A DNA stretch of 64,000 nucleotides, from the NCBI RefSeq assembly GCF_030646615.1, contig NZ_JAUSLG010000037.1, positions 1-64,000 on the forward strand. Direction: 5' to 3'. The notes beneath the pieces are model-generated. The model searched no databases and was not told where the DNA came from. It worked only from the letters and a program-made list of their open reading frames with translations. The position numbers and the translations under genes are program-made. Origin of the DNA: Phenylobacterium sp. Its GTDB lineage: Bacteria; Pseudomonadota; Alphaproteobacteria; Caulobacterales; Caulobacteraceae. This document shows positions 5,683 to 36,681 of this stretch, piece after piece (position 1 is the first letter of the stretch; each line of letters begins with the position of its first letter).

Positions 5683-6020
5683 TGTCTGCTCACCACCCGC
5701 TTCAGACCTTTCGTTGGCGGTCGCTGGGGAGCGCGGCATTTCTGTTCGACGAAATCCGACCTTCTTGAGCCAGTTGGTAGAGGCGCGGGTATCTCTGCGA
5801 AGGGGAGCGTCTAACCAATTATTTAAGTGGGAAAAATTCCGAATTCTTCGAGTCCTGCCGGGCCCACCAGCGGGGCTAATGAGGAAGTATCCGCCCCAGA
5901 GATATGGGAACTAATCGCCACGTAAAAATATAAAGCGGATCGCTTGGGTAGATTAGATGATCCTTTTCCGGCGTTTGTCAGGCGTTCTGTTTGAGTAGTA
6001 CATCGCTGATATTTCAGAGC
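5683..6020. other. 338-bp intergenic stretch containing a tRNA 3'-end-like repeat
   Basis: No gene is supported here. The stretch is AT-richer than its surroundings and carries one copy of the 27-bp direct repeat at 5846-5872. A D-arm-like segment near 5767 lies too far from the T-arm-like piece to make a tRNA. Confidence 0.5.
5846..5872 (+). repeat. 27-bp direct repeat, left copy; att-like tRNA 3'-end fragment
   Basis: The segment begins CTTCGAGTCC and ends GGGCCCACCAGCG. It is exactly repeated in the same orientation at 36601-36627. Read as RNA it is a T-loop (TTCGAGT), the 3' half of a T-stem, the 3' strand of an acceptor stem and CCA. The matching 5' T-stem is absent, so this is a fragment, as left by site-specific integration into a tRNA 3' end. 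Confidence 0.7.
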
Positions 6021-6179
6021 TTATCGCCCATGACGTTGCGGCGGGTATGCATCATCTGGCTTAGCGCGTTCTTCGGCAATCAGCACGGCGATTTTTCTTC
6101 GCTCCGCGTGGTCCATCGTTCGCGCAAGAACGCGCTCGAAATGCTCAACGTTCAGCCTTCTGAGCTCAGCCGGCGACAT
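6021..6179 (-). CDS. Small hypothetical protein, 52 aa
   Basis: The ATG at 6179 follows a strong GGAGG with a seven-base gap, which decides the start. The product (MSPAELRRLNVEHFERVLAR...) is a charged, probably helical peptide resembling short alphaproteobacterial proteins of the 'LRRLNxEHxxRLL...AEEEAKP' type. No function is known to me. It is the first gene inside the left repeat, on the same strand as the ubi and nar genes. Confidence 0.6.
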   Translation of the reverse strand: MSPAELRRLNVEHFERVLARTMDHAERRKIAVLIAEERAKPDDAYPPQRHGR

Positions 6180-6299
6180 CAGGGCCTCCGTAACGCGGGT
6201 CTTTGAATCCGAGTGCAAGGCGCCTCATTGAGCCCAAATAGCAACGCGACAGATGTGCTGCGGCGTCAGAGGCGGCCTGAGGGGGCTTCCGTCTGAGGG

Positions 6300-6710
6300 T
6301 CAGAGCCCGCCGAACTGGATCGGGTCGCCATTGACGTCGAATGCGGCGTACCGGCCAACGCCGCCGACGTGGATCGCGTCGACCATGCCCTGTAGCGCCA
6401 CCTCGACCTGCGCCTGGGTCGGCGGCTTTCCGTCCTCACCCCCGAGCGCGGCGGCGAAGACGATCTGCCACGGCGGCCCGGCGAGCTTGGCCTCTGCAAC
6501 CAGATCGGAAAAGCCAGCGAGCTCGGATGGCGCCTTGTCGACGCACATCAGGGGCGCAAGGGCGCCGCCGGCGCCAGCCAAGAAGCGCTCACGCTGGGCT
6601 TCGGTCGCGTCGGCGGGCAGTTCTGCGGACGTGAACACAAACAGCAGCTGTTGAGGCTCTGGCTGGCTGGCGGCGGCCTTCAGCAACTGGTCGAAGTGCG
6701 AGTCTGCCAT
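6300..6710 (-). CDS. Small conserved protein, 'ribonucleotide reductase subunit alpha-like' (function unknown)
   Basis: This is a 136-residue soluble protein starting MADSHFDQLLKAAASQPEPQ, with a PLMCVDKAP core and a VFAAALGG segment. I recall short proteobacterial proteins of this pattern annotated as 'ribonucleotide reductase subunit alpha'. It has no reductase catalytic motif, so that name should not be taken literally. It is the last gene of the ubiT-ubiU-ubiV-oxidoreductase run, 46 bp after the oxidoreductase. The long N-terminal extension possible in this frame has no ribosome-binding site, and the ATG at 6710 fits the family length. Confidence 0.65.
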   Translation of the reverse strand: MADSHFDQLLKAAASQPEPQQLLFVFTSAELPADATEAQRERFLAGAGGALAPLMCVDKAPSELAGFSDLVAEAKLAGPPWQIVFAAALGGEDGKPPTQAQVEVALQGMVDAIHVGGVGRYAAFDVNGDPIQFGGL

Positions 6711-6756
6711 TGAGAGCAATCCTAGGTTTGCTGGCGCCCCTGTTCCGGGCGGGGCC

Positions 6757-7881
6757 TTATACCGTAGCGGGCTGGTGTTTTCTCCCGGTCCAGCGCATGG
6801 GCGAAAACTGTTGGGCGATCTGGGCCTTGGCCTCACCGGTGGTTGACGCCTCGACTTTGAAGAAGAGGTCAGCGGCCAGGCGACCGGCGGCGGGCGCTGT
6901 TTGGATGCCATATCCGCCAAGGCCGGCGAACCAGAATAGATTCGGCGCTCGTAGGTCCCAGCCGATCACCGGCAAGCGGTCTGGGGCAAAGCTGCGCAGC
7001 CCGGCCCACTTGTGCTTGATACGAGGGGGCTTGAATCCCGTGGCTTGCCTAAACCGGGCCACCGCGAGCGCGACGTCCGCCTCCTCAGGTTGGGCATCCA
7101 CAGGCGGAGAGGGCGTTTCGTCGCAGGGCGATATCAACAGATCCCCGCCAAACGGCCGAAAATAGTATTTCTCACCCATGTCTTTCACGATGGGTCCGCC
7201 GAGAACGAGCCCTTCGGGGCTAGGAGGGTCGATGAGTATGGCCGTCCGCCGGTAAGATTTCAGGCCAATTGGAGCCACGCCGCACTCTGCTGCGACCTCA
7301 TTGGCCCAGGCTCCGGCTGCGTTGACCAGCGACGTGCAGCGAAGCTCTTCGCCATTGATCGTCAACCGCCAATGGGTCCCATCATGGCCAGAGACATGTC
7401 CACCTGCGCCCAGCCAGAGGGCGGCGCCTTGGCGTGTCGCCCGCGCCAGCAGGATTTGGTGCAAGCGGCTTACGTCCAGCTCACCAGTTCCGCTTTCAAG
7501 CCAGGCCGACTTGATGTGGCGGGTCCTCAGAATAGGGCAGAGCTTCCTGACCTGAACGCCATGGATTGGAATAGCAGTTGCGATCGGCTGGGGGCGCTCC
7601 TGGGACGAGATGTGGAGGACGGGGCGTGCGCGCAGCAGCGGGCCGCCGGCATCAGAGGCCTCGTCCTCGAAAAAGGCTCGACTTGCTTCTGCAAGGGCTG
7701 CTGTGACCGGCCCGCCGTAGGAGGGAATGAACATGCCCGTCGATCGCCCGCTCGCATGTCGACCGAGGCGGTCTTCCTTCTCCACGATCAAGGTCTTTAT
7801 CCGGGGCGCCAGCTGCGCAGCCATGCATGCGCCAGCGATACCGCCTCCGAGTATGACGACCTCAAAGACCGGCGGCTTCAC
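6757..7881 (-). CDS. FAD-dependent oxidoreductase, DAO family (D-amino-acid/D-arginine dehydrogenase-like)
   Basis: This 374-residue flavoprotein has the N-terminal dinucleotide fold ILGGGIAGA, a RHASGRSTGMF segment matching the FAD-binding loop of D-arginine dehydrogenase-like enzymes, and a C-terminal GLGGYGIQTAPAAG FAD contact. Such enzymes oxidise D-amino or imino acids and commonly pass electrons to the quinone pool. It starts at a GTG that overlaps the ubiV stop codon (GTGA), so the two are translationally coupled. The tight coupling to ubiquinone genes allows a redox role in anaerobic quinone synthesis, but this is conjecture. A quinone-linked dehydrogenase is the simpler reading. Confidence 0.78.
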   Translation of the reverse strand: MKPPVFEVVILGGGIAGACMAAQLAPRIKTLIVEKEDRLGRHASGRSTGMFIPSYGGPVTAALAEASRAFFEDEASDAGGPLLRARPVLHISSQERPQPIATAIPIHGVQVRKLCPILRTRHIKSAWLESGTGELDVSRLHQILLARATRQGAALWLGAGGHVSGHDGTHWRLTINGEELRCTSLVNAAGAWANEVAAECGVAPIGLKSYRRTAILIDPPSPEGLVLGGPIVKDMGEKYYFRPFGGDLLISPCDETPSPPVDAQPEEADVALAVARFRQATGFKPPRIKHKWAGLRSFAPDRLPVIGWDLRAPNLFWFAGLGGYGIQTAPAAGRLAADLFFKVEASTTGEAKAQIAQQFSPMRWTGRKHQPATV

Positions 7882-8777
7882 AAGGCGACCGCAGGACGCA
7901 TGCCGGCGGCTCCCCCCAGGTATCCGTCGACAAGAGGGCCGGGAAGATCACAGGCGAGAAGCTGAGCGAGCAGACGTCCACGGTCGCCAGACTCAAAATA
8001 CCGGCCATAGGCTGCGATCACGCCTGACATGTCGCAGGCGTGCGGCGACAGCCGCACGGCGCGGACGCCGGCCGCCTGCAGCTCACCGGGCGAGGCTGCC
8101 ACCGTATGAACGCCGTGAGACAGGGTTTGAATGCCGTTGATGCTGAGGAAGGACGCGCCCTCCAGGGTCTGAACCGCCTGGCCGTCGGGGTCGCGATCGC
8201 AGACAAATCGGCAGGTGTCCTTCGACAACCCGGCTTGCCGCGCATGGTAACAACGCGCTGAAAGCGCCAGGGGCAGCCGGCCAAAGCCGAATACCTCAAT
8301 TTCGAGATCAGGGCAGGCGCGGTGGATCTCCCCAATCGCCGCCAGGGACAGCTCGATGTTGGCGCAGAGGCGCTCGCATCCGCGGTCCACAAGAATCTGG
8401 GCGGCTGACCCATTGTAGATGTTGAGCAGCGGACCTGCGACGAAGGGGTGGCAATTCGGAAGCAGGCTCAGGGCGGCGAGGTCGTTCAGTTCCAGCAGCC
8501 AGCCGTCCTGCTCCGCCACCCCGCGCAGCAGGCGTCGGTCCCTCGGCGTAGAGATCAGGCCAAGGGTGGACCAGACCACCTCCTTGCCTGCGTCTCGCAA
8601 CAGGTCGGCCGCCCCTAGCAGGGTTGCTGCGGCCAAGGGTTCGCGCTTTCCGCACACCACTTCGCCGAGATAGATGCGACGCACCAAAGGCTCGTGCGCC
8701 ATGCGCTCATAGAAGCCGGCAATGTCGGCGGCAGGCCAGTTGAAGAGCAGGGGGCCGAGGGTGATCTCGAGCGACAT
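7878..8777 (-). CDS. ubiV: UbiV, O2-independent ubiquinone hydroxylation protein (U32 family)
   Basis: UbiV works with UbiU to hydroxylate ubiquinone precursors without O2. It is a cytoplasmic U32-family [4Fe-4S] protein, 299 aa here. Cysteines C42, C176, C189 and C193 keep the C-x12-C-x3-C spacing of the cluster ligands known for E. coli UbiV, inside the typical ALSARCYHAR...CRFVC context. It lies directly after ubiU and overlaps the oxidoreductase start. In facultative denitrifiers this pathway supplies quinone for nitrate respiration, which fits the neighbouring nar genes. Confidence 0.95.
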   Translation of the reverse strand: MSLEITLGPLLFNWPAADIAGFYERMAHEPLVRRIYLGEVVCGKREPLAAATLLGAADLLRDAGKEVVWSTLGLISTPRDRRLLRGVAEQDGWLLELNDLAALSLLPNCHPFVAGPLLNIYNGSAAQILVDRGCERLCANIELSLAAIGEIHRACPDLEIEVFGFGRLPLALSARCYHARQAGLSKDTCRFVCDRDPDGQAVQTLEGASFLSINGIQTLSHGVHTVAASPGELQAAGVRAVRLSPHACDMSGVIAAYGRYFESGDRGRLLAQLLACDLPGPLVDGYLGGAAGMRPAVAL

Positions 8778-8778
8778 G

Positions 8779-9771
8779 TCACCGCCACCGCTTGTTGTAG
8801 GCGCCTTCGGTCTCCCGACCGCCCTCAGCGAGATCGGTCAGCATGTGCTCATAGGGCGCCGTGCTCTCGCCGCGATCGAGGGCGTCGATCGCCTTGCGAA
8901 AGGCGCGGGTCACACGCGCGACATAGGCCTTTCCGCGCTGACGACCCTCAATCTTGACGGCTTTCACGCCTGCGTCCCGCAGGCTGGCCAACAGGCCCAT
9001 GGCGTTCAGGCTGGTCGGCTCTTCGAACAGGTAGGTGGCGTCCCCATCGGTCGCGAAACGCCCCTTGCACAGGGTTGGATATCCGGCCGTGGCTCCGGTC
9101 GGAGTCTTGTCGAGGGCGAGCCCGGCCAGCCGTGAAATCATCCCCTCGGAGGTGCGCTCGAAACTCACTGCTTCAGGCGGCGAGCAGACGCCAGAGAGGT
9201 TAGGGGATTGTCCGCTGACATAGGATGAGAGGGCGCAACGCCCTTCGGTCATGACGCACAGCCCGCCGAAGACGAAGGCCTCGATCTCGGCCGACGATTC
9301 CTTGATCAGGTCGGCGATCTCCGCAGCGGACATTACCCGAGGGACGACCACGCGCCGAACCCCGAACGTCTCCACATAGAAGCGGATCGCCTCAGGGGTG
9401 TTCGCCGCCGCCTGCACCGACAGGTGAAGCCGCACAGCCGAGCTCAGCTGACGAACATGGGCAAGAACGGCGAGGTCGGCGGCGATGATCGCATCGGCGC
9501 CGGCGTTGATCGCGGTCTTCACAGAGGCCCGCCAACGATCCTCGCCGCCAGCCCGGGCGAATGTGTTGATGGCTACGAGCACGTTGGAGCCCTTCCGGTG
9601 GGCGAAATCGACAGCGCGCGTCAGTTCTGTGGCGTCGAAGTTGAGGCCCGGGAAGTTCCGCGCGTTTGTTTCATCGCGGAGACCACAATAGACGCTGTCG
9701 GCGCCCGCCTCGATGGCCGCCTCCAGCATGGCCGGCGAGCCTGCCGGGCAGACGAGTTCAATGGACCCCAT
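8779..9771 (-). CDS. ubiU: UbiU, O2-independent ubiquinone hydroxylation protein (U32 family)
   Basis: This is the partner of UbiV in the O2-independent hydroxylation complex, 330 aa. The U32 signature is present: the N-terminal ELVCPAGSP and the cluster region GGLCVMTEGRCALSSYVSG. Cysteines C172, C179, C196 and C235 reproduce the spacing of the four [4Fe-4S] ligands described for E. coli UbiU (169, 176, 193, 232), shifted by three. The start lies within the last 14 bases of ubiT, and ubiV follows after 1 bp, so ubiT-ubiU-ubiV is one operon. Confidence 0.95.
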   Translation of the reverse strand: MGSIELVCPAGSPAMLEAAIEAGADSVYCGLRDETNARNFPGLNFDATELTRAVDFAHRKGSNVLVAINTFARAGGEDRWRASVKTAINAGADAIIAADLAVLAHVRQLSSAVRLHLSVQAAANTPEAIRFYVETFGVRRVVVPRVMSAAEIADLIKESSAEIEAFVFGGLCVMTEGRCALSSYVSGQSPNLSGVCSPPEAVSFERTSEGMISRLAGLALDKTPTGATAGYPTLCKGRFATDGDATYLFEEPTSLNAMGLLASLRDAGVKAVKIEGRQRGKAYVARVTRAFRKAIDALDRGESTAPYEHMLTDLAEGGRETEGAYNKRWR

Positions 9772-10300
9772 GGGGCATGCCTCCTGTGCGCCTGGTCGCG
9801 CGACGCCAATCCACCACGCGCTGCAGAACCGGATCGAGGCTTGGGGCCAGGGCGGCCGGAACCAGCAGGTCGGCGAGGCGCAGGTTCGCCGCCTCCAGCG
9901 CGTTGTGGAGGGCCAGCACCGCCCCTGTGTCGCCCCGCACGGTCAGCCCGCCGGCGAAGAAGGTTGCGTCGGCATCGGCCGAGCCATCGAAGAGTGCGAG
10001 CAGATCCATGAGCTCGCCCGAAATCTCAGCCACATAGCCCATGGGCCGACGCGTGCGGCGAACCACCTTCACGCCGCCGCCGTCCTCGAAAAGGGTCAAC
10101 TCGAATGCGACCGGCAGATCTTCGGGATCGATCAGATACGGGCGACCTTGAAAGCGGCCCAGGCGACCAAAGGCGTTGGCCGACCGCCGCCAAGCCCGCT
10201 TGACGGCGAGATTGAGCATCATCTCCATGGGCGGTCGTAGGACCAGCGCCAAGTCTGTCAGAATGCGCGCAGACAGGCGTTCCTCTGAGAAGTGCATCAT
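9758..10300 (-). CDS. ubiT: UbiT, SCP2-domain accessory factor of anaerobic ubiquinone synthesis
   Basis: This 180-residue protein has an SCP2 sterol-carrier-like fold (FELTLFEDGG...FFAGGLTVRGDTG), as in UbiT, which binds lipidic ubiquinone intermediates for UbiU and UbiV. It is the first gene of the ubiTUV run, with an AAAGGGCG ribosome-binding site before ATGATG. A 108-bp gap with a GACGAC-GAAT-GTCGTC dyad separates it from the crp/fnr gene upstream on the same strand, so it may have its own promoter or be the tail of the nar transcript. Confidence 0.88.
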   Translation of the reverse strand: MMHFSEERLSARILTDLALVLRPPMEMMLNLAVKRAWRRSANAFGRLGRFQGRPYLIDPEDLPVAFELTLFEDGGGVKVVRRTRRPMGYVAEISGELMDLLALFDGSADADATFFAGGLTVRGDTGAVLALHNALEAANLRLADLLVPAALAPSLDPVLQRVVDWRRATRRTGGMPHGVH

Positions 10301-10354
10301 CGCCCTTTCCGGGCGAGAACAGGCGCCCGGACGAGGTCTAGGGCGGGGCGGAAC

Positions 10355-10370
10355 GACGACGAATGTCGTC
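10355..10370. promoter_or_regulatory. Inverted repeat between crp/fnr and ubiT
   Basis: A perfect 6+4+6 dyad, GACGAC-GAAT-GTCGTC, lies in the only sizeable gap between the nar operon end and ubiT. It could be an operator for ubiT or a weak terminator stem for the upstream transcript. There is no T-run. Confidence 0.35.
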
Positions 10371-10408
10371 CGTCAACGCGACGTCCGCCTTTGGTCAGCC
10401 TGAGGGCT

Positions 10409-11182
10409 TCAAACCGTCATGCGCTCGGGTTGGTTTGGCCAGGCCTCAAGCCGCGCCTTGCCTCCACCGCGCATAACCTCAGGCGCATGATTGTCGATCA
10501 GCGCATCAGGTTTCGCCAGGCGCGTCAGCACCACTGGCCGGCCAATCGTCACGAGCGGACCGTTCACCGCCACCCCATAGTCGGCGAGGCTTGCGAAGGC
10601 GCGGGACAGGTTCTCGGGGGTCATGCCCAGCAGCGAGGCCAGAACGCGCTTCTCGTGCGGCAGGGTGATGGTCTCGACATCGCCCTGGCGCACGCGCTGG
10701 GTGATCAGATAGTTGGCCAGTCGCTCGATCCCGCCGCGGAGCTTCTGGCTCTTCATTGAGCGAACCAGACCGCGGTAGCAGCCCGCCAATTCCTGGGACA
10801 CGGCGAAACCGAAGGCGGCGTCCTCCTGCATCGCCCGGCGAAGGGTCTCACCCGAGATCATCAGAATGTCGGACCGATCACGAGTCGTAGCGCTCATCAG
10901 GGCGCTCGTGTCTAGGACGACCGCAGCCAGGATGAAGGTCGATAGGGGACCCAGCAGGGCGAGGATCGTCTCCTTGTCATTCCAGGTGCCGGAGAGTTCG
11001 ACCGTCCCGTCGAGGACAATATAAAGAAAATCAACGCTGTCGCCTTCGGTGAGCAGGGTTGTCCCCGCCGGGAAGCGTTGAAGGAAAGCCCCCTGGATCA
11101 GGCGACGGAACGTGTCGTCATTGGCCGTTTTCAGAAACGGCAGCTCCCTGACGCGTTCGAGATCGACCTCTTTGATCGGCAT
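10409..11182 (-). CDS. Crp/Fnr family transcriptional regulator
   Basis: The 257-residue protein has an N-terminal cyclic-nucleotide-binding-type beta-roll (FPAGTTLLTEGDSVDFLYIV), a long dimerisation helix and a C-terminal winged helix with recognition segment LLGMTPENLSRAFASL. It lacks the N-terminal cysteine cluster of FNR, so direct O2 sensing by an Fe-S cluster is unlikely. A DNR/NNR-like response to NO is possible but not shown. The start MPIKEVDLE is set by GTGGAGG seven bases upstream. It is the last gene of the nar run, overlaps mobA by 65 bp, and has an FNR-like box 56 bp upstream. It is a natural candidate to regulate the FNR-type boxes of this region. Confidence 0.88.
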   Translation of the reverse strand: MPIKEVDLERVRELPFLKTANDDTFRRLIQGAFLQRFPAGTTLLTEGDSVDFLYIVLDGTVELSGTWNDKETILALLGPLSTFILAAVVLDTSALMSATTRDRSDILMISGETLRRAMQEDAAFGFAVSQELAGCYRGLVRSMKSQKLRGGIERLANYLITQRVRQGDVETITLPHEKRVLASLLGMTPENLSRAFASLADYGVAVNGPLVTIGRPVVLTRLAKPDALIDNHAPEVMRGGGKARLEAWPNQPERMTV

Positions 11183-11852
11183 GCATGGTCCTCCACTCAG
11201 GCGGACCATGGCGCTCTTGCGCGTTCCATCCTTGATCTATGTCACGGAGAGCCCTGACGGCGCGTGCGGCCATTTGGCCACTTTGGTTAGTCAGGTCTTC
11301 CGGCGTGTTCAGGTTCAGGAAGACTTGGCCTCGAGGGTCCTCCCACACGACCTGACGGCCGTTGAGCTCGACAAGCAAGCCGCGGAGCGACCTGCGGCCT
11401 GATTGCGCGTAGCACAACAGGGGCTCAAGAGCCTCGATACGCCACAGGGTGCAGGTTGGATGGCCCTGGCGGCTGTCTCCTGCCGAGGCCGCGAGGGCGT
11501 CGGGATCCTGAACAAGCGCCTCCTCCAGCCTTGTGTACAGATCATCGGGGAGATGGGGCGCGTCGCACGGGATCGTCAGAACGTGGGCGGCCCCGATCTG
11601 CGCGCCGTGGGCCAAGCCGCTGGCCACCCCAGCCAGGGGGCCTTCGATCTTGGGTGAGTCAAATAGCAGCTGAACTGGCGGGAGCTCGTCAGCCTGCCGC
11701 CGCTCGCGAACCGACAGGGCCACGTGATTGGCGAAGCTTGCGGCCAGGGACAGGGCGTGTTCGCCGAGGGCGCGGGCCTGATAGAGGCGCTGGGGCTTGT
11801 CGCCGCCCATGCGGCGACCCGCCCCGCCGGCCAGCACCACACAAAGTCTCAT
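11118..11852 (-). CDS. mobA: MobA, molybdenum cofactor guanylyltransferase
   Basis: MobA attaches GMP to Mo-molybdopterin, giving the MGD that NarG requires as bis-MGD. The 244-residue protein begins MRLCVVLAGGAGRRMGGDKPQ, the GTP-binding signature, with PCDAP and FLNLNTPEDL further on. The ATG at 11852 overlaps the carbonic anhydrase stop (ATGA), whereas a start 17 codons upstream would be atypical. About 30 residues follow the normal MobA end, and this extension covers the promoter and start of the crp/fnr gene. Confidence 0.9.
   Translation of the reverse strand: MRLCVVLAGGAGRRMGGDKPQRLYQARALGEHALSLAASFANHVALSVRERRQADELPPVQLLFDSPKIEGPLAGVASGLAHGAQIGAAHVLTIPCDAPHLPDDLYTRLEEALVQDPDALAASAGDSRQGHPTCTLWRIEALEPLLCYAQSGRRSLRGLLVELNGRQVVWEDPRGQVFLNLNTPEDLTNQSGQMAARAVRALRDIDQGWNAQERHGPPEWRTMHADQRGRSRTRQGAAVSENGQ
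11232..11245. promoter_or_regulatory. FNR/DNR-like box upstream of crp/fnr
   Basis: TTGAT-CTAT-GTCAC matches 8 of 10 positions of the TTGAT-N4-ATCAA consensus. It lies inside mobA, centred 56 bp before the regulator start codon, so it could give the regulator its own, possibly autoregulated, promoter. Confidence 0.4.
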
Positions 11853-12511
11853 CGGCGTTTTCCTGTAACGGCGGCGCTGGAACTGTTGGGTTTCGTCTCC
11901 CACAGCGCTCGCGCCCGCTCCACCCGCCCGACAGACACCTCCAGATCCCTCAGCAATCCGTCCTGGATGGAGTAGATCCAGCCGTGAACCTCGAGGGGCT
12001 GCTTCTTGCGCCAGGCGTCCCGCACGAAGGGATTGGCGGTGATCTGTCGCACCTGTTCGATCACATTGCGCTCGCAGAGATCGTTCACCCGGGCCTCAGG
12101 ATCGGTGATCAAGGAGAGCTCATGCTCACAACGCCACGAGAGGCTTCTGACCGGGGTCAGCCAGTGGTCGATCAGGCCGTGGCGCTCCTCGGAGAGGGCG
12201 GCGCGGACGCCGCCGCAGCCATAGTGGCCACAGACGATGACGTGGCGGACCTTGAGGACCTCCACGGCGAACTGAAGGACCGAGAGGAAATTTGCGTCCT
12301 GAGGCGGGGCAAGATTGGCCACGTTTCGGTGAACGAACAGCTCGCCGGGGTCGAGGCCGACGATCTCGTTGGCAGGTACCCGGCTGTCTGAGCAGCCGAT
12401 CCAAAGGTAGGAAGGCGCCTGCAGGCTCGCCAGGCGGCGGAAATACTCCGGATCGACGCGAGCACGGGTCGCCGCCCAGCGAATGTTGTTGTCAAAGAGC
12501 TCGGAGATCAT
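11849..12511 (-). CDS. Beta-class carbonic anhydrase
   Basis: This zinc enzyme interconverts CO2 and bicarbonate. The 220-residue protein shows the beta-class signature CSDSR (C40, D42, R44) and HYGC (H96, C99), which give the zinc ligands Cys-His-Cys and the Asp-Arg dyad. No signal peptide is seen, so it is cytoplasmic. It overlaps hemerythrin upstream and mobA downstream by four bases each (ATGA), an unusual place within a nar operon. It might balance pH or bicarbonate during nitrate respiration, but this is inference. Confidence 0.93.
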   Translation of the reverse strand: MISELFDNNIRWAATRARVDPEYFRRLASLQAPSYLWIGCSDSRVPANEIVGLDPGELFVHRNVANLAPPQDANFLSVLQFAVEVLKVRHVIVCGHYGCGGVRAALSEERHGLIDHWLTPVRSLSWRCEHELSLITDPEARVNDLCERNVIEQVRQITANPFVRDAWRKKQPLEVHGWIYSIQDGLLRDLEVSVGRVERARALWETKPNSSSAAVTGKRR

Positions 12512-13059
12512 GGCTGGGCGTCGAGGAAGAGGCCCCGCCTGGCGGCCAGTCGTCGGCTTAGCGCCGTCAGGTCGGCGGTGGTCAGTCGCAGCCGCGCGAT
12601 CGGCAGCACCACGGCGTTTTCGAGCGCCAGGTGGCGAAGCTCGTGCCGGGCGAAGGCGAGAAGTACGGACTTGGCCTCCGGATCGAGCCCCGGCGCACGC
12701 TGGGATGTCAGTGCAGACTCCAGTCGGTCCCGGACGACCTGCGACTGGGTGACGTCAGCGCGGTGCTCTGCCGACAGACGCCCAAGGACATTCTCGATTT
12801 CGTCCTCAGGCAGGGCCCGACGCCGGAGCAGGGGGAAGAGATCCTCCTCTTCGTCGATGACGTGCAAGGCAAGATCATAGCGGATGAAATCGATGATCTG
12901 GCTGATGGGGTCAGCTTTGAAGACAGGGCTGGCCGCCACCTCCTCGATCATCCGGCAGAGTTGCCTGTGCCGATAGTGCTCGGCGAAGAACCAGTCGAGC
13001 GGCTCACGGAGCAGTTCGCGCGGAATGACTTCAATATCCGCAGGCGGGGCGCAAGGCAT
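12508..13059 (-). CDS. Hemerythrin-like domain protein
   Basis: The 183-residue helical protein has the spaced His/Glu ligands of a hemerythrin HHE domain: EHYRHRQ near residue 28, LHVIDEEEDLFPLL, EHRAD and RHELRHLALEN. Such di-iron proteins bind O2, NO or serve iron repair. A cytoplasmic sensor or scavenger of O2 or NO fits a nitrate-respiration operon. The ATG at 13059 has GGAGAG eight bases upstream, so the longer frame upstream is discounted. It overlaps the carbonic anhydrase by ATGA. Confidence 0.82.
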   Translation of the reverse strand: MPCAPPADIEVIPRELLREPLDWFFAEHYRHRQLCRMIEEVAASPVFKADPISQIIDFIRYDLALHVIDEEEDLFPLLRRRALPEDEIENVLGRLSAEHRADVTQSQVVRDRLESALTSQRAPGLDPEAKSVLLAFARHELRHLALENAVVLPIARLRLTTADLTALSRRLAARRGLFLDAQP

Positions 13060-13079
13060 GGCCGGCTCTCCAAGGAGGC

Positions 13080-14267
13080 TCAATAGCGGTAGTCGAGACT
13101 GATCCAGACCTTCGTGCGGTCGCCGTAGCCGGGGCGGTCGCCCTCGAACCAAGCCAGCTTGGTTTCGAGCGAAAGGTGCGGGGTGAGGGGCGCGGCCGCC
13201 AGAAGATCAAGCTCCGTGCCGTAGTCGTCGCCGCCATCGGGGACGGTGAACCGGTGGATGGCCGCTGCGAGGCGGACAGGCGGCAAGCCTTCCGGACGCA
13301 AGGTGGCGCCGATCTTGGCGTTGAGGTCCTGGACGCCGTCGGGCGGCGTGGTCAGGAAGGCGTCGGCCCATCCCTGAAATGCGTGGAGCGTGGCCAGGGG
13401 CGTCGCAAAGCCGCGGCTCCCGTCCCCCTCCAGGCGCTCGAGTGTGAGGCTCGCCCAGCTGTCCTGTTGGCGGAGGCCAAGACTGAGCGAGGCATAGTCC
13501 AGGTCGAAGTCGGCAGGGTTCCCCCCGTAGTCGGCCTGCCGGGCATAGCCGGCCTCCAGGCTCCCCTTCAGCCCGCTGTCTGACAGAGGCCGCTCCAGCC
13601 GCAGGCTTGCGCCCAATGTGGCGCTGGACTGGGCGGGCGCGTTGGCGAAGTCGAGCCATTCCCCGTGCAGGGTCAGGTGGCCCCAGGCGGGCTTCCAGTC
13701 GGCCTGGGCAAGGTGACTGTCTGAACGCCAGTCGCCCTGTGGATGGTCATCGCCGAAGATGCGCTGAACGCGATCCACGTAGACGTAGGTGACCGCGAGG
13801 TCTGACCTCGGCCTGTAGTCCACTCGGGCGGCGTCGAAGGTCTGCTCGTTCTGTCGGAAGCCGACATTGCCGACGAAGCGAGCCGAACCGAGGATGATCC
13901 GCTGGCGACCGACAACGGCGGCGGCCTTTTCGGCTTTCCACGCGAGCTGCAGACGATTGAGCTCGGTTGTCTCTGGATCGGGGACGACCGGATAGGCGAC
14001 CTCGCCGTTGGTGGTGGAATTGTACTCCTCCCCGAGGGCCACGACATTCTCGCCCTCAATGAGGAGCTGAACGCCCTTCCAGGGGGCGGTCTCGAAGCCG
14101 AGCCGCGTGCGTAGGGTCAGCGCCGCAGCGGTGTTGGAGAAACCGCTTTGATCGACCGCCTCATGCCGCAGGCGGCTTTCCAGGATGATCGTGGGGGTAT
14201 CGGAGGCGTGCGCGAATCCTGGGGTGGCCAGGGTCGCCAGACCGAGCACGACAGTGGCCAACCGCAT
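13080..14267 (-). CDS. Outer-membrane porin, alginate-export-like family
   Basis: This 395-residue protein has a Sec signal peptide (cleavage after ...GFAHA, residue 21), many alternating beta-strand segments and a C-terminal aromatic residue (...WISLDYRY), all typical of an outer-membrane beta-barrel. The ESRLRHE...LRTRLGFE opening matches the alginate-export (AlgE-like) porin family. Between the PPIase and hemerythrin genes of a nar operon, a role in nitrate or nitrite passage across the outer membrane is plausible but unproven. Confidence 0.78.
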   Translation of the reverse strand: MRLATVVLGLATLATPGFAHASDTPTIILESRLRHEAVDQSGFSNTAAALTLRTRLGFETAPWKGVQLLIEGENVVALGEEYNSTTNGEVAYPVVPDPETTELNRLQLAWKAEKAAAVVGRQRIILGSARFVGNVGFRQNEQTFDAARVDYRPRSDLAVTYVYVDRVQRIFGDDHPQGDWRSDSHLAQADWKPAWGHLTLHGEWLDFANAPAQSSATLGASLRLERPLSDSGLKGSLEAGYARQADYGGNPADFDLDYASLSLGLRQQDSWASLTLERLEGDGSRGFATPLATLHAFQGWADAFLTTPPDGVQDLNAKIGATLRPEGLPPVRLAAAIHRFTVPDGGDDYGTELDLLAAAPLTPHLSLETKLAWFEGDRPGYGDRTKVWISLDYRY

Positions 14268-14270
14268 GGC

Positions 14271-15389: not shown

Positions 15390-15393
15390 GGGG

Positions 15394-16194: not shown

Positions 16195-16202
16195 GGCGAA
16201 CC

Positions 16203-16910: not shown

Positions 16911-16913
16911 GGG

Positions 16914-25019: not shown

Positions 25020-25027
25020 TAGTCTGA

Positions 25028-26329: not shown

Positions 26330-26343
26330 TTGACCCCCATCAA
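26330..26343 (-). promoter_or_regulatory. FNR-like box upstream of moaA
   Basis: On the minus strand the site reads TTGAT-GGGG-GTCAA, nine of ten consensus positions. It overlaps the nnrS stop codon and lies about 184 bp before the moaA GTG, leaving room for the structured leader in the transcript. Confidence 0.6.
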
Positions 26344-27515: not shown

Positions 27516-27549
27516 GGAATGAGAATGCGCCGCATTTCCGCGGGGCGCC

Positions 27550-27563
27550 TTAACCCCCATCAA
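27550..27563 (-). promoter_or_regulatory. FNR-like box upstream of nnrS
   Basis: On the minus strand the site reads TTGAT-GGGG-GTTAA, eight of ten consensus positions, and differs by one base from the moaA box. Its centre is 41-42 bp before the nnrS ATG. A class II promoter would then start transcription at or next to the start codon, giving a leaderless message. Confidence 0.5.
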
Positions 27564-27575
27564 GCAGCGGGCGCC

Positions 27576-29834: not shown

Positions 29835-29936
29835 GAGCCTGCCTCCTGGGTGGGCCTTGGAGGCTGTTCGATTCGCTGCGGCGCGCGACAGGGCCTACGG
29901 GGTGTCGCAGGGCTGCGAAAACCTGCGGTCGGCCAG

Positions 29937-29950
29937 GTGACGGACATCAA
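29937..29950. promoter_or_regulatory. FNR-like box between nrdJ and the 63-aa gene
   Basis: On the minus strand the site reads TTGAT-GTCC-GTCAC, eight of ten consensus positions, with the same TTGAT/GTCAC halves as the crp/fnr site. It is centred about 110 bp before nrdJ and 84 bp before the divergent small gene, so it could serve either. Confidence 0.42.
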
Positions 29951-30026
29951 GCCCCGGGAGCAGGGGCTTCAATGCGCTCCCCGGCGCATAGGCCCAAGGT
30001 GATCTCTCACTCAGGAGATCGCCCAA

Positions 30027-30218
30027 ATGCTTTCCGAGATGCAGATCGTCGAGCGGGAGTTCGCCCGCCGCCCGCCCCTGGTCGACGACGACCGTCTGGC
30101 GCAGGCCGCCTCAACGCCCTCGCACACCCCCACGCCGAGCCGGCCTGTGCGTTGGCTCCATGCGATGGCTTGGGTTTTGGAGGCCCCCTCCGCCGCCGTC
30201 CTCCTGGGGCGCAGCTGA
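30027..30218 (+). CDS. Small hypothetical protein, 63 aa
   Basis: The ATG follows AGGAGA with a proper gap. The product (MLSEMQIVEREFARRPPLVD...) has a hydrophilic N-terminal half and a hydrophobic C-terminal segment (WLHAMAWVLEAPSAAVLLG), perhaps membrane-associated. I recognise no family. It is divergent from nrdJ and converges with moeA, ending three bases before the moeA stop. The tight fit and ribosome-binding site support a real gene. Confidence 0.5.
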   Translation: MLSEMQIVEREFARRPPLVDDDRLAQAASTPSHTPTPSRPVRWLHAMAWVLEAPSAAVLLGRS

Positions 30219-30221
30219 ACC

Positions 30222-31403
30222 CTAGAGCGCTAGAACCTGCACTTGGCTCCCGGTCGGCAAGCCCGGCGCGTCGGGACCTCGCCGCGCCAACAGGGTCCAT
30301 TCGCCCATGACCGCCTGAGCGCTGGAGTCCTGGCTTCCGCAAGGGTGTGCGCCGGCTGCATCCATGTGGGCTCGAACGAACACCTCCCGCTCACCCGTGG
30401 GCGCAAAGGGTTGGCCGACTGGCGCATAGCGCCAGACCCAGGCTTCAGTCGGTGATCGGCCGCTCAGCGCCGCCAGCAGGGGCGCGAGGAACAGGCGCGC
30501 CGTGACCATGGCGGCGGTGGGGTTGCCGGGCAGGCCGACCACCAGCCGCCCCCTCGACCGGCCAACCCAGACCGGCTTTCCCGGCTTCATGGCGACCTTG
30601 TCGATGATGAGTTCAAGCGGCTCGAAAGCCGCTCGGGCATAGTCCCTTTCCCCGACCGAGGCTCCTCCGGTCATGACGATGACATCGGCGTTCGTCTGTT
30701 CCTCGGCGACAGCGCGGCGCAGCGTGGCCAGATCATCAGGCGCGTGAAGGCGTTTGACGACGCCCGCGCCCCATTGGCGGGCCAGGCTGGCGACTCCATA
30801 GGACACGCTGTCGGGAACCCGGCCGGGCCGATCCAGCGCCGTTCCTGGCGCGACGAGTTCATCGCCGGACGAGATGATGGAGACCCGCGGACGGCGGCTC
30901 ACCGAGACAAACGGCCGGTCGGCCGCCGCCGCGAGCAGGAGGGCGCCAGGGTGCAGAACACATCCTCGTCTGAGGAGAATCTGTTGGGCCCGAAAGTCAG
31001 ATCCTGCCTGCCGGACATGGGGGCTGGAGAGCTGATGAGGATCTAGGCTCATGCCCTCCGCCGTCGTTCGCACCAGTTCCTGCGGCACCACCCGATCGAA
31101 ACCGACAGGCAGTGGCGCACCCGTGAAGATGCGCACGCATACCTCCGCGGGCCATTCGCCGGACGGCGCATCGCCGGCATAGATTTCGCCGCTGACAGTC
31201 CAGGCGGTTCGCCCCGCCTTCAATTCGGAGTCGCGGATCGCATAGCCGTCCATGGCCGACACCGCCTGGGCGGGACTGTCGCGCGGGGCGAGGATGTCGT
31301 GGGCCAGAACCCGGCCATCGGCCTCGTCCAGGGCCACTGACTCGGCGTCCAGGGGCTCGACCAGGTCGGTCAGACGGCGGCAGGCTTCGTCGAAACTGAT
31401 CAC
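30222..31403 (-). CDS. moeA: MoeA, molybdopterin molybdenumtransferase
   Basis: MoeA inserts molybdate into adenylylated molybdopterin. The 393-residue protein has MDGYAIRD, the TGAPLPVGFDRVV segment, MTGGASVGERDY and the PGNPTAAMV motif in usual order. Translation starts at a GTG overlapping the moaB stop (GTGA), whereas the upstream in-frame extension lies inside moaB. Last gene of the moaD-moaB-moeA operon. Confidence 0.94.
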   Translation of the reverse strand: MISFDEACRRLTDLVEPLDAESVALDEADGRVLAHDILAPRDSPAQAVSAMDGYAIRDSELKAGRTAWTVSGEIYAGDAPSGEWPAEVCVRIFTGAPLPVGFDRVVPQELVRTTAEGMSLDPHQLSSPHVRQAGSDFRAQQILLRRGCVLHPGALLLAAAADRPFVSVSRRPRVSIISSGDELVAPGTALDRPGRVPDSVSYGVASLARQWGAGVVKRLHAPDDLATLRRAVAEEQTNADVIVMTGGASVGERDYARAAFEPLELIIDKVAMKPGKPVWVGRSRGRLVVGLPGNPTAAMVTARLFLAPLLAALSGRSPTEAWVWRYAPVGQPFAPTGEREVFVRAHMDAAGAHPCGSQDSSAQAVMGEWTLLARRGPDAPGLPTGSQVQVLAL

Positions 31404-31939
31404 GCGCAGACGCCGCGATAGCGAGGAACCTGGCCGACGAGGGAGCAGGGGCGGAAGCGGCTGTCGAACTCCTGCGCCAGCACCAGATCCCAAGCATCGC
31501 GGCAGGCGCCCGTGGAGCCGGGGACGCAGAAGATAAACGTCTCGTCGATCTGCCCCGCCAGGGCCCGCGACTGCAGGGTTGATACCCCCACCGTTCCATA
31601 GCTCGCCTGGTGAAAGACGACAGAAAAGCCATCCATCTCGCGGCCTAGCAGCGGACGGACCGCCTCGGGCGTCACATCTCGCGGAGAGAAGCCGGTGCCA
31701 CCCGTGGTCAGAATGACGTCCACCCGTGGGTCGTCGGCCCAGGCGCGGACCTGACGACCGATGGCCTCGACCTCATCGGGGACGATGGCGCGGCCGGCCA
31801 GCTCGTGGCCGGCCTCCGACAGTCGGTCGGCGAGCAGGGCGCCGGACGTGTCGGTGGTTTCGTTCCGGGTGTCGGAGATGGTCAGAACCGCGATGCGAAG
31901 GGGGTAGAACGGCAAGCGCTCGTCAAGGCCATGCTTCAT
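31400..31939 (-). CDS. moaB: MoaB/Mog-type molybdopterin adenylyltransferase
   Basis: This family adenylylates molybdopterin ahead of MoeA. The 179-residue protein has [33 protein letters not shown] and the [14 protein letters not shown] segment, as in MoaB proteins. It lies 4 bp after moaD and overlaps moeA. The name MoaB is preferred over Mog from the length and the [11 protein letters not shown] motif. Confidence 0.92.
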
Positions 31940-31943
31940 GGGG

Positions 31944-32234
31944 TCAACCTCCAGAAAATGCGGAGAAAAAGGCGACTTCGACCCCAGGGTGGATGTGGGC
32001 GACGTCGATGACGAGCACCTGATCGACCGCAGCCCTGATCCCAGTCGCCGCTAGGGCGGCGGCGGCGTCAGGGAGTTGGGCGGCGATCAAAGCCTTCAAG
32101 CCAGCGAGCGACACGCCGCCAGCTGGCACATGCACCCGGAGGCTTCGCCCCAAACGGTCGCTGACGGCGCCAAAGAAGAGGATGGTGGTATTGGCGCTGG
32201 CTGTCTCGGGCGCCTTCGACGTCACATCTAGCAT
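31944..32234 (-). CDS. moaD: MoaD, molybdopterin synthase small subunit
   Basis: MoaD is the ubiquitin-like sulfur carrier whose C-terminal glycine becomes a thiocarboxylate and donates sulfur to precursor Z. The 96-residue protein opens its beta-grasp with ILFFGAVSDRLG and ends ...FFSAFSGG, with the required terminal Gly-Gly. The partner genes moaE and moaC are not in this window, so they must be elsewhere. First gene of the moaD-moaB-moeA operon. Confidence 0.9.
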   Translation of the reverse strand: MLDVTSKAPETASANTTILFFGAVSDRLGRSLRVHVPAGGVSLAGLKALIAAQLPDAAAALAATGIRAAVDQVLVIDVAHIHPGVEVAFFSAFSGG

Positions 32235-33449: not shown

Positions 33450-33512
33450 CTGTGGCGCATGCCAAGGTGGGCGCCAGCGCAGCGCTTTATAGAGAACCCA
33501 ATGGAGGTTCTC

Positions 33513-34157
33513 ATGATTTCCCAAGACACCACTGTTCGCGATATCGCTGTAGAGCGCCCAGGGGCGACGGCCGTTTTCCGGCGACACAAGATCGACTTCT
33601 GTAGCGACGGGGGGGCCTCGCTCTCACAAGCAGCTATCCAGCGAGGTCTGTCAGTCTCCGATCTTCAGGCCGAACTTGATGGACTTGCGGCCGATCAAGG
33701 CGATCTGCCGGCTGACGCGAGCGGCCTGATCACTCACATCCTCAGCCGGTATCATGAAGTCCATATGGCTGAGTTGCCCGAAGCGGTACGTCTGGCTCGC
33801 CGTGTCGAGGCGGTCCACCGGGCCAAGCCCGACTGTCCCCACGGCTTGGCCGATCATCTGGCGCTGATCCTTGATGACCTTCAGGGGCATCAACACAAGG
33901 AAGAGGCCGTCCTGTTCCCGATGATGCTCCAGGGCGGGGGAGCGATGATCCGTTTCCCGATCGAGCGCATGCTCGCCGAGCATGTGGACGTCGGCGAACA
34001 GTTGGACGAACTGGGCCGGCTTACGACAGATTTTACGCCGCCGGCTGGCGCATGCACCACCTGGCGCGCGCTCTACGAGATGTGCCGCAAGGTCGACGAA
34101 GACCTGCGTGAACATATGCACATCGAGAACAACATCCTTTTCCCCAAGTTCATCTGA
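33513..34157 (+). CDS. RIC/YtfE-type di-iron protein, repair of iron centres
   Basis: RIC proteins (YtfE, ScdA, NorA, DnrN) rebuild Fe-S clusters damaged by NO or peroxide. The 214-residue protein has the N-terminal DUF542 part (VERPGATAVFRRHKIDFCSDGG) and a hemerythrin-like di-iron domain (LITHILSRYHEVHMAELPE, HQHKEEAVLFPMM, LAEHVDVGE, REHMHIENNILFPKF). The usual CCGG motif is CSDGG, so only C30 remains of the Cys pair. GGAGG five bases before the ATG sets the start. It pairs functionally with nnrS against NO formed during nitrate respiration. Confidence 0.9.
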   Translation: MISQDTTVRDIAVERPGATAVFRRHKIDFCSDGGASLSQAAIQRGLSVSDLQAELDGLAADQGDLPADASGLITHILSRYHEVHMAELPEAVRLARRVEAVHRAKPDCPHGLADHLALILDDLQGHQHKEEAVLFPMMLQGGGAMIRFPIERMLAEHVDVGEQLDELGRLTTDFTPPAGACTTWRALYEMCRKVDEDLREHMHIENNILFPKFI

Positions 34158-34158
34158 A

Positions 34159-34175
34159 CCCCAGTCCATCTGGGG
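34159..34175 (+). promoter_or_regulatory. Stem-loop between ric and hemN
   Basis: CCCCAG-TCCAT-CTGGGG forms a 6-bp stem with a 5-base loop immediately after the ric stop. There is no T-run, so it is more likely a processing or stabilising element than a terminator. Confidence 0.4.
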
Positions 34176-34199
34176 GTGGTTCAGTCAAGGAAGGCTGTC

Positions 34200-35585
34200 A
34201 TGACGCGGGCAAAGGTCGCTTCCATCCCTGAGGGTGTAATAGATAGGGTGCTCAAGCACGACGGTCGCGCCCCGCGGTATACGAGCTATCCCACCGCCGT
34301 GCAGTTTTCCACCGACGTTGGCCCAGCCGAATATTGTGACTGGCTCGTCGCCCTTCCGCAGGACAAGGCGGTCAGCCTGTATGTCCATGTGCCCTTCTGC
34401 ACCCGTCTCTGCTGGTACTGCGGCTGCAACACACGGGTGGTCAATCGGCCCGAACCGATCGGCGAGTATGTCCGCTATCTCCTTCGGGAGGTGGAGCTGG
34501 TCGCCCGAAAGCTCGACGGCCGACGGCCTGCAAGCGGGCTCCATCTGGGGGGAGGCACCCCCAATACCCTCACGGTCGAAGAACTCCAGGCGGTCTTCGG
34601 CGCCCTGGGTCGCGAGTTCGCATTTACCGACGACATGGAGATCGCCGCCGAACTGGATCCGGCCAGCCTGACCAAGTCCTGGGTCGACGCCGCGGGAGCG
34701 CTCGGCCTGAACCGGGCGAGCCTCGGGGTGCAGACCCTGGATCCGAAGGTTCAGGCCGCAGTCAATCGCAACGAGACCTTCGAGCAGATCGACGAATGCG
34801 TGGCGGCGTTGCGCTCGATCAGGGTGCGTTCTCTCAATCTCGACCTGATGTACGGCTTGCCCCACCAGACGACGCAGAGCGTCCTCGACACCATCGACGC
34901 TATCCTGGCCTTTCGGCCCGAGCGGCTCGCCCTGTTCGGCTATGCCCACGTTCCCTGGATGAAGTCACATCAGAAACTGATCGCAGAGTCGGCGCTGCCT
35001 GGCCCGGCCGAACGTCTCGAACAGGCGCTGATGGCCGAAGAGAAGCTGATCGGAGAGGGCTATGTCTCCATCGGGCTGGATCATTTCGCCTTGCCCCATG
35101 ACGAGCTTGCCCGCGCCAAGGCCGACCATCGACTGCGGCGCAACTTCCAAGGATACACGACCGATTCCGCGGGAACGCTGATCGGCTTTGGCGCCTCGGC
35201 CATCGGCGCTCTGCCAGGGGGCTATGTCCAGAATCACACCCAGGAACTGCCCTGGCGGCAAGCCATAGACCGTGGCGAGGCGCCCATCGCCCGTGGGGTG
35301 GCCATATCTGAAGACGACAGGTTCCGAGCTGAAATCATCGAGCGGTTGATGTGTGACTTCGCCGTTGATCTGGAGGCGGTGTGCGGACGCCACCAGACTC
35401 GGAGCCCCGCCGAACTGAGCGGCGCCATAGAAAAGCTGCAGCCCTTTCTAGACGACCGGTTGGTCGGTATCGACGGGAGCTACATTCAAGTGCTACCCGC
35501 GGGCCGCCCCCTGGTGCGGTCGATCAGCGCATGCTTCGACACCTATTTTCAGCCGGAGGCCCTGCGGCATTCCCGCGCCGTCTAG
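34200..35585 (+). CDS. hemN: HemN, oxygen-independent coproporphyrinogen III dehydrogenase
   Basis: HemN converts coproporphyrinogen III to protoporphyrinogen IX without O2 by radical SAM chemistry, replacing HemF under anoxia. The 461-residue protein carries VPFCTRLCWYCGC with C67, C71, C74 and C76, then GGGTPNTL and NLDLMYGLPHQT, at the positions expected for true HemN rather than HemW. The ATG at 34200 has AAGGAAGG upstream. It is the last gene of the plus-strand group, in keeping with heme needs of NarI. Confidence 0.95.
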   Translation: MTRAKVASIPEGVIDRVLKHDGRAPRYTSYPTAVQFSTDVGPAEYCDWLVALPQDKAVSLYVHVPFCTRLCWYCGCNTRVVNRPEPIGEYVRYLLREVELVARKLDGRRPASGLHLGGGTPNTLTVEELQAVFGALGREFAFTDDMEIAAELDPASLTKSWVDAAGALGLNRASLGVQTLDPKVQAAVNRNETFEQIDECVAALRSIRVRSLNLDLMYGLPHQTTQSVLDTIDAILAFRPERLALFGYAHVPWMKSHQKLIAESALPGPAERLEQALMAEEKLIGEGYVSIGLDHFALPHDELARAKADHRLRRNFQGYTTDSAGTLIGFGASAIGALPGGYVQNHTQELPWRQAIDRGEAPIARGVAISEDDRFRAEIIERLMCDFAVDLEAVCGRHQTRSPAELSGAIEKLQPFLDDRLVGIDGSYIQVLPAGRPLVRSISACFDTYFQPEALRHSRAV

Positions 35586-35614
35586 GCGGACCTCGAGCGG
35601 GCGAGGCTCTGCCG

Positions 35615-35812
35615 TCACGGGACCGACGGGGATTGCGCTAGGGTGAACAGCAGGAGCCCGTCGCGCTGGACATCGATTGTTGTTGCGGCCTGGGCGGCCG
35701 GCAGGCGTCTCAGCCGGGTGATAATCTCAGTGTCAGCGCAGTAGAGGTGGACGATTTCGTATCTGCCTTCGGCCCCTTTGAAGTGAAGCTCAAACATGGA
35801 GGCGCAGGACAT
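35615..35812 (-). CDS. Small hypothetical protein, about 60-65 aa
   Basis: The frame reads MSCASMFELHFKGAEGRYEIVHL... and probably starts at the first or the sixth codon. Neither has a strong ribosome-binding site, but it begins 19 bp after the stop of the small gene at 35832-35981, so coupling is plausible. Alternating hydrophobic residues suggest a beta-rich fold. No family is recognised. Confidence 0.45.
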   Translation of the reverse strand: MSCASMFELHFKGAEGRYEIVHLYCADTEIITRLRRLPAAQAATTIDVQRDGLLLFTLAQSPSVP

Positions 35813-35831
35813 CGCGTGAGATCGCCGCTGA

Positions 35832-35981
35832 CTACTTGTGCCGCAGAATGAGTCGGGCTGCGTCCAGCTGTCGCCTTTCGATCGTCGTCAGGCTCTGCAA
35901 GGCCGCCAGCTGGGCCGCGCGACGCTTAACTTCATGGCGCCTGACGGCGCCCAGGATCGCCCTGGCCTCTTGCAGGTTCAT
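35832..35981 (-). CDS. Small basic hypothetical protein, 49 aa
   Basis: An ATG at 35981, with GGAGG five bases upstream, opens a 49-codon frame (MNLQEARAILGAVRRHEVKR...RLILRHK) that ends at 35832. The product is strongly basic and predicted helical. I recognise no family. It is the last gene before the right-hand 27-bp repeat and forms a likely two-gene unit with the frame at 35615-35812. Confidence 0.55.
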   Translation of the reverse strand: MNLQEARAILGAVRRHEVKRRAAQLAALQSLTTIERRQLDAARLILRHK

Positions 35982-36681
35982 GCTGGCCTCCACATAGGTC
36001 ATTCATGCCTCACCCTGAGGACGAGCGCCTTGAAGCTGTTCAAGCCGGCAGCCCAACATTCCTAGGGAGACCCGTCGTCGTCCGCCTGGCCGTGCTTGCC
36101 GCTGTCACGAGTGTGTTCCGCACAGGTCAAGCTCCTGATTGAGAACAGGCAATCGGTCCTGGCTGCGTAGCGGCTACCCTCTCCTGACTTGGCGCTTGGG
36201 TGCTGTTTCCCAGTCAAAGGAGTTGCGCCAATTGGCACTCCCACGCTTCTCACTTGGCCCCCGGCACGCCGTGGGGCCGCCTTTGTTTCTAGGAGCGGAC
36301 CGGCTTGGCGCTGGGTCGCTAAGGTGGAACGTGGCGCCCAACGCGTCACCGACCGCAGCCCCGATAGCGTTCTAAGGAGACTGCGCTCCGGAACCTCGAT
36401 CCAGTTGTTCGCCGAGCCTGCCGCTTCCAAGAGCGGCAATGCCGCGGGCCTCACATCGACATCGGAGAGGTCCGAGGACCCGTCGGTGGGGGAGCGCTGC
36501 CTTTGCTAAGATCGGCAAAGCGGTCCTGCTGGTACCCTTGCTGGCGCCATTCGTGTTTCCAACTCATAAGTAGCGAAAAATGTTGGAGAAACCAGCTCAC
36601 CTTCGAGTCCTGCCGGGCCCACCAGCGCCGCTTGTGCGGGACGGGCTACAGGTTCGGTGGGCTGGGGAGGTGAGCGCCTCA
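35982..36681. other. 700-bp stretch without a supported gene, containing the right repeat copy
   Basis: Several overlapping frames cross this stretch in both directions, but none has a ribosome-binding site, biased codon use or family resemblance. It contains the second 27-bp tRNA 3'-end-like repeat (36601-36627). It looks like eroded DNA at the border between the anaerobic block and the AraC/TonB cluster. Confidence 0.5.
36601..36627 (+). repeat. 27-bp direct repeat, right copy; att-like tRNA 3'-end fragment
   Basis: Identical over 27 bases to 5846-5872 and in the same orientation. Identity stops just before the T-loop on one side and three bases after CCA on the other, as expected for an att core rather than a dispersed repeat. 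No integrase gene adjoins it. Confidence 0.7.

Follow-up and report, generated by a model that had tools for sequence, protein, structure and literature searches.

The window analysed here is a 64,000-nucleotide stretch of a Phenylobacterium genome (G000; 3.85 Mb in 105 contigs) and corresponds to positions 1–64000 of contig C67. It contains a block of about 30 kb with genes for nitrate respiration and other anaerobic functions, bracketed by two copies of a 27-bp sequence. Direct comparison bore out the statement of an earlier note on this DNA that the segments at 5846–5872 and 36601–36627 are identical and co-oriented; at the base composition of the window, about 1e-6 exact 27-mer direct pairs would be expected by chance. 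The two copies (core 1 and core 2) match the 3' end of a whole tRNA gene on contig C14, and we consider it likely that islands are stacked at this one tRNA(CAT) gene, the block being the inner one and having no integrase of its own. The cores and their surroundings, named according to that proposal, were:

1–5845, no strand: putative inner end of the outer island; 1–2547 at 92% to contig C13 of a relative, G058; placed relative to C14 by the model
5775–5791, + strand: arm-type motif pair TGGTA-N7-GGGTA, 10/10, starting 72 bp left of core 1
5846–5872, + strand: core 1, fragment of the tRNA(CAT) 3' end with TTC at 5847; attR-type, putative right end of the outer island
5873–36600, no strand: putative inner island (cargo), the anaerobic block; 6309–36299 collinear with G058 at 86.6%
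36530–36546, + strand: arm-type motif pair TGGTA-N7-TGGCG, 8/10, second half-site changed, starting 72 bp left of core 2
36601–36627, + strand: core 2, fragment of the tRNA(CAT) 3' end; attR-type, putative right end of the inner island
36628–56620, no strand: accessory DNA right of core 2 (span searched; includes the 36682–47511 cluster)

Gene families in the block were assigned by Pfam and NCBIfam, and agreed with the earlier placement of nitrate, ubiquinone, heme and nucleotide genes between the cores and of other genes outside. No integrase or transfer domain was found in the block genes scanned, a subset of the open reading frames. The genes were:

7878–10300, − strand: ubiV, ubiU and ubiT, anaerobic ubiquinone synthesis; all above NCBIfam cut-offs
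10409–11209, − strand: FtrB-type Crp/FNR regulator; domain match
11118–11903, − strand: MobA-like nucleoside triphosphate transferase (molybdenum cofactor); a relative also adjoins nas at the hotspot described below
15394–22165, − strand: narGHJI respiratory nitrate reductase; narG 2127 bits
22162–24984, − strand: two MFS transporters, MFS by domain; presumed narK-like from position
25175–26302, − strand: moaA, preceded by a molybdenum cofactor riboswitch (26142–26278, − strand; RF01055, 87.7 bits)
26340–29834, − strand: nnrS and nrdJ (B12-dependent ribonucleotide reductase); domain matches
30222–32234, − strand: moeA, a mog/moaB-like gene and a ThiS-family gene (molybdenum cofactor); domain matches
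33459–35585, + strand: ScdA/RIC-type hemerythrin and hemN; domain matches

The tRNA gene, its 3'-end fragments and the integrase

The 23-mer TTCGAGTCCTGCCGGGCCCACCA was present at three places in the whole genome when up to two mismatches were allowed, so the 27-mer is not a dispersed repeat; a common dispersed repeat would, according to the earlier note, have refuted its proposal. The third place coincides with the 3' terminus of a complete tRNA gene of 76 nt (C14:8425–8500), labelled tRNA-Met (CAT) by ARAGORN; we assume that it may be a lysidine-modified tRNA-Ile2. The resemblance to a tRNA 3' end thus held with one correction: the initial C of the 27-mer lies outside the tRNA sequence, the tRNA having G at that position. 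All three copies share a core of 26 nt (TTC...CCAGCG), and the copy at 5847 agrees with the C14 tRNA plus its flank over 30 nt. A tRNA gene search of the 64-kb window returned none.

A 432-codon open reading frame (8579–9877) begins 78 bp past the C14 tRNA. Its domains, PF13356, PF22022 and PF00589, identify a P4-type tyrosine integrase, and translation more probably begins at the ATG of codon 34 (399 aa), the position that the gene caller chose for the start of the G058 relative. The genome has seven PF00589 matches, none of them on C67, and no relative of the C14 integrase was found in the window at E 1e-3. Both cores therefore lack a whole tRNA or an integrase beside them, as previously noted, and the proposed search for a tRNA ending in the repeat led to a single gene with a tyrosine integrase next to it. 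Relatives of this integrase follow the whole tRNA in G058 (93%), G069 (73.5%), G057 (57%, ending at the contig end) and, by DNA match, G113. Among 54 whole-tRNA loci, a set in which some genomes (G069 and G057 included) are counted twice, such a relative was present in four, from G069, G057 and G082. Relatives also occurred in 420 phage records, every one below 60% identity (best 57%). Directly past the C14 integrase lies a Hachiman-like pair (10179–14773; HamB E 2e-49, HamA weak at E 4e-4), and a gene for a TIR-domain protein is located about 6 kb past the integrase in G058.

Arm motifs and end types

The motif pair KGGTA-N7-KGGTA consists of two KGGTA half-sites 12 bp apart, left of the core. 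It was defined from 13 of 20 tRNA fragments, some mutually homologous, with cores at 0 to 3 mismatches. Twelve of the 13 carry the pair at 8 to 10 of 10, starting 72 bp (nine fragments), 51 bp (two) or 70 bp (one) from the core; the thirteenth, a degenerate core in G113, has a pair score of 6. Since the motif had been derived from this partly homologous set, seven further fragments were examined. Four had a pair scoring 9 or 10 that started exactly 72 or 51 bp from the core, and a fifth scored 10 at 50 bp. Random window DNA reaches at least 9 at the 72- and 51-bp registers with a frequency of 3e-5. Over random 100-bp segments, a score of 8 was found anywhere in 3.4% and of 10 in 0.1%, rising to 6.4% and 0.9%, respectively, for segments of similar A+T. 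The seven whole-tRNA copies scored 4 or less at these registers.

The integrase side has a different arrangement: four of five genomes have TGTTGGTA-like sites at +124, +146 and +167, with the second and third inverted, and G057 has two such sites near the +146 and +167 places. None was found within 250 bp right of the 13 fragments. The window cores, judged from sequence, look like tRNA 3'-end fragments resembling right-hand island ends, and both bear right-end arm pairs (10/10 and 8/10), in line with the earlier statement that such fragments mark the right ends of islands. Because both cores look like right ends, with no integrase-side sites found to the right of either, the block is probably an inner island without integrase or left arm. 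A core with an arm pair in fixed register offers a signature for the far ends of islands, even where the integrase has been lost or lies on a different contig.

Three other assignments were considered and rejected. Cores 1 and 2 were not accepted as attL and attR of one island, as the search to the right of core 1 turned up no arm cluster of the integrase-side kind. A D-arm-like stretch left of core 1 (5766–5790) was not taken as a decayed whole tRNA, since it is the arm pair itself; other fragments carry the pair in the register of core 1 without a D arm. The segment 6043–6196 was discarded as a piece of an island end because its relatives occur elsewhere too.

The tRNA hotspot and the block in related genomes

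The exact 22-mer was found in 85 of 101 Phenylobacterium genomes and at two or more places in 12; two of the three places in G067 are whole-tRNA pieces at contig ends. In the stretches fetched from 15 relatives, the same gene lies left of the tRNA in 14 (in G008 it was not found in the 1.4 kb upstream at hand), and no arrangement to the right is common to more than three. In G055 the tRNA is followed by about 1.2 kb and then the nas operon, and in G058 the contig runs on to nas. For these reasons nas is taken from sequence as the right neighbour of the tRNA in the clade of G000, where the operon sits on the separate contig C92. The same need not hold across the genus: nas and the tRNA share a contig in G034, G036, G037 and G049 and stand at least 0.26 Mb apart there. 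G055 has core-like sites also right of nas, followed by DNA that in G058 follows core 2; nas may thus itself be an old arrival, and segments look permuted around the tRNA cores in G055 (C41, C40) relative to G058 (C13). At the same hotspot in G113, 9.8 kb lies between a core and a degenerate core (C22:15696–25513); the core at 15696 is followed by another integrase (PF00589, 527 aa), with restriction-modification-like genes there recognised by eye only. No Phenylobacterium tRNA hotspot or nitrate island was found in the literature searched, in which subscription papers were thinly covered.

The search for an empty site, also proposed earlier, was answered in part: G055 provides a nearly empty site, and an exact joined empty site was looked for in G000 and not found, its C14, C67 and C92 being separate contigs.

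Outside the cores, the DNA left of core 1 carries acetyltransferase, methyltransferase, RibF and FkbM genes, and that right of core 2 AraC, MFS, TonB-receptor, tannase and transporter genes. A tannase/feruloyl-esterase cluster at 36682–47511 is collinear at 80% with G011:C1:2533301–2544111, far from the G011 tRNA, and this homology begins 55 bp past core 2. Over 36628–56620, no match at sister-species identity was present in G001 (best 72%) or G058 among the matches listed, with five candidates per genome scored. On this ground the DNA right of 36627 was taken as accessory DNA and rejected as the old chromosome flank. Window 1–2547 and parts of C67:65577–70337 match G058:C13 at 90–92%. On either side of the block, C67 therefore seems to consist largely of accessory DNA, which fits a long stack lying, in the order that we infer, between C14 and C92. 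Two further observations concern this DNA. The gene for a RibF-type riboflavin kinase/FAD synthetase (2574–3587) lies in island DNA within a lower-G+C stretch. Positions 972–2547, with GNAT and methyltransferase genes, are directly duplicated at C67:68646–70220 (90%, about 68 kb apart); in G058 one copy turned up, on C13.

In G058, a single collinear stretch matches 6309–36299 at 86.6% and lies between copies of the same cores (C8:293790 and C8:254812). No DNA directly outside the cores is common to G058 and G000. A 7.5-kb segment with an RND efflux gene separates the left core of G058 from the block, a HipA gene and a helix-turn-helix (HTH) gene lie outside that core, and the nas operon stands about 8.3 kb past the right core, the operon and the DNA beyond it being collinear with G000:C92. 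G055 has no block-sized match to 5873–25870 in its genome.

In G001 the block lies on a separate contig and is 90% identical over 11829–31732. The left side of a second core there is 71% like the surroundings of core 1, and the 225 bp to its right match the window at 78% and G113 at 87%; with a match of only 225 bp, this core was not accepted as bordering the block. In G113 the block (6043–35670, 85.6%) occupies the right end of an insertion of about 50 kb (C21, 27.99–78.12 kb) that is missing in G001 and G058, where the flanking matches stand 41 bp and 19 bp apart; G055 has 1.4 kb of other DNA at this place. No att-like repeat was found for the insertion. A tRNA-Gly island was rejected as its explanation: the insertion starts about 0.55 kb past the tRNA-Gly relative to G058, and the contig holds no further copy of the tRNA-Gly end at up to seven mismatches. 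Beside nas at the G113 hotspot lies a leftover tail matching the right island end of G058 at 87%, as if the block had once lain there. In G057 a core stands 1.1 kb right of the last block match. Homology edges fell near the cores at 6309 and 36299 (G058), 6043 (G113) and 36682 (G011). With G055 lacking a block-sized match and G113 holding the block elsewhere, the block is not at one place in all relatives; its presence at the same place in all of them, with no empty site, was the other finding that by the earlier note would have refuted the proposal.

Between species, block identity was 85.6–90.2%, compared with 82.6–91.7% for flanking DNA of the same species; for G000 and G058 the values were 86.6% and 84–92%. 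The G000–G001 comparison (block 90.2%, two hotspot flanks 82.6% and 87.8%) hints at recent exchange, on few regions. Although 71 plasmid records match 5800–30700, none does so with a single place over more than 80% of it; a block-wide plasmid match was rejected, the ten listed of the 71 covering at most 26%, over the nar genes where annotated.

Proposed history of the block and comparison with known systems

In the proposed history, a P4-type integrase would act on the core TTC...CCAGCG at the tRNA 3' end and recombine it with the copy on an island. Each entry would leave a whole tRNA next to the integrase, and the far side would end in a tRNA 3' fragment with arm sites ahead of it. The inner island would have brought the nitrate-respiration set, and a later outer island, with the integrase and defence genes, would have entered at the tRNA, so that the block now stands between two right ends. 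The inner island would have lost its integrase and left arm, and the block should now move only as a passenger of the outer island, by recombination between the whole tRNA end and core 2. The C14–C67 join, the order of entry and the action of the integrase on core 2 are parts that the model supplies. As the block of about 30 kb sits between two island ends, nitrate respiration was probably imported and moved as island cargo. The earlier note had proposed two stacked islands or a decayed island. The stack is supported and accounts for the data better than a single two-ended island, with the C14–C67 join belonging to the model.

Several observations weigh against this history. C14, C67 and C92 are draft contigs that are not physically joined. 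No PF00589 match lies between the cores, and the left end of the inner island is missing. In neither G000 nor G058 did the 250 bp to the right of core 1 show an attL-type arm cluster; a lone 8/10 pair-like match does lie right of core 1, at a distance unlike that of the integrase side. One of the seven further fragments scored 8 at 52 bp and another was off register (8 at 39 bp), and two of the seven whole-tRNA copies reach 8 elsewhere in the 130 bp to their left. The G113 block has no cores, none being found within four substitutions. In G001 the 0.96 kb that follows the 225-bp match, up to the contig end, is unlike the block, which leaves the link between core and block there unproven. Recent exchange is likewise not shown, because block identity falls within the flanking range.

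Some of these points also bear on other histories. The DNA from the C14 tRNA to core 2 could be one composite island; core 1 would then be a relic of an earlier capture inside it, and the block would never have been a separate island. The single known integrase side on C14, the right-end arms of core 2 and the absence of an integrase-side arm cluster after core 1 speak for this history, whereas core 1 has its own full right-end arms (10/10) and a G058 core with such arms also lies left of the block, though 7.5 kb off; we regard this history as rather unlikely. That the block is ancestral chromosome of the clade, with islands inserted to its left and right and the bracket incidental, would account for a block divergence equal to species divergence and for the related nar genes in many Phenylobacterium genomes. 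It sits poorly with the lack of a block-sized match in G055, with the position of the block in G113 at a place unoccupied in G001 and G058, and with the lack of common outer DNA directly beside the cores in G000 and G058, and was judged improbable. That the 27-mer is a repeat due to chance or dispersal, or a pseudogene of a tRNA with no part in integration, is hardly credible: no observation in favour of this was found, and against it stand the three genomic places, one of them a whole tRNA with an integrase, and arm motifs in register at the cores.

Beyond the stack itself, we tentatively suggest that the block travels as a passenger, entering, leaving and switching sites in Phenylobacterium by way of a genus-wide, tRNA(CAT)-specific island family with one end architecture (core, AT-rich spacer, and KGGTA-N7-KGGTA at about 72 or 51 bp). 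Site-specific recombination, and not the slow decay of genes, might then underlie the gain and loss of nitrate respiration, and the core and arm signature makes such gain and loss in the genus testable at predicted junctions. An island hotspot would here be tied to a full respiratory lifestyle, comprising nitrate reductase and molybdenum cofactor, anaerobic quinone, heme and deoxynucleotide synthesis.

The proposed mechanism belongs to a known class, the tandem accretion of tRNA islands, to which the arm register is a useful specific. Islands targeted to tRNA genes by P4-type (PF13356) integrases have the integrase by the whole tRNA, a core from the tRNA 3' end, a fragment at the far end, arm-like repeats and variable cargo. 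The present locus is similar in its whole tRNA directly followed by an integrase on C14 (linked to C67 by the model), its tRNA 3'-end direct repeat at the far end, its arm-like repeats, its hotspot with variable cargo and its site that is nearly empty (G055) or differently filled (15 relatives). It differs in having at least two far ends in a row and a nitrate block without its own integrase.

As described in the available text, cis-mobilizable elements (CIMEs) have no integration or transfer genes of their own, keep attL and attR, and are moved in cis by an accreted element (PMC5704250). The block resembles them as an integrase-less segment between two att-like cores, probably adjoining an integrase-bearing element at the same site. 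By the attL/attR criterion, both cores are present and core 2 has right arms (8/10), with no integrase-side cluster right of core 1; the block thus differs from a CIME in that integrase-side arms were not found at its left core, and its mobility is predicted from the stack. The Shewanella island CGI48 is a composite at tRNA-Trp with HipAB, for which excision was demonstrated (PMC8978831). The stack proposed here from sequence would likewise be a composite of islands at a tRNA, and G058 has HipA and HTH genes by its left core; the cargo of CGI48 is unrelated according to its abstract. In Sphingopyxis granuli TFA the nar genes were exclusive among the Sphingopyxis strains compared and were taken as acquired (PMC4741004), a similar case of nitrate respiration genes that one alphaproteobacterial strain has and its congeners lack; the available text mentions no tRNA-core bracket for those genes, unlike the block in the window.

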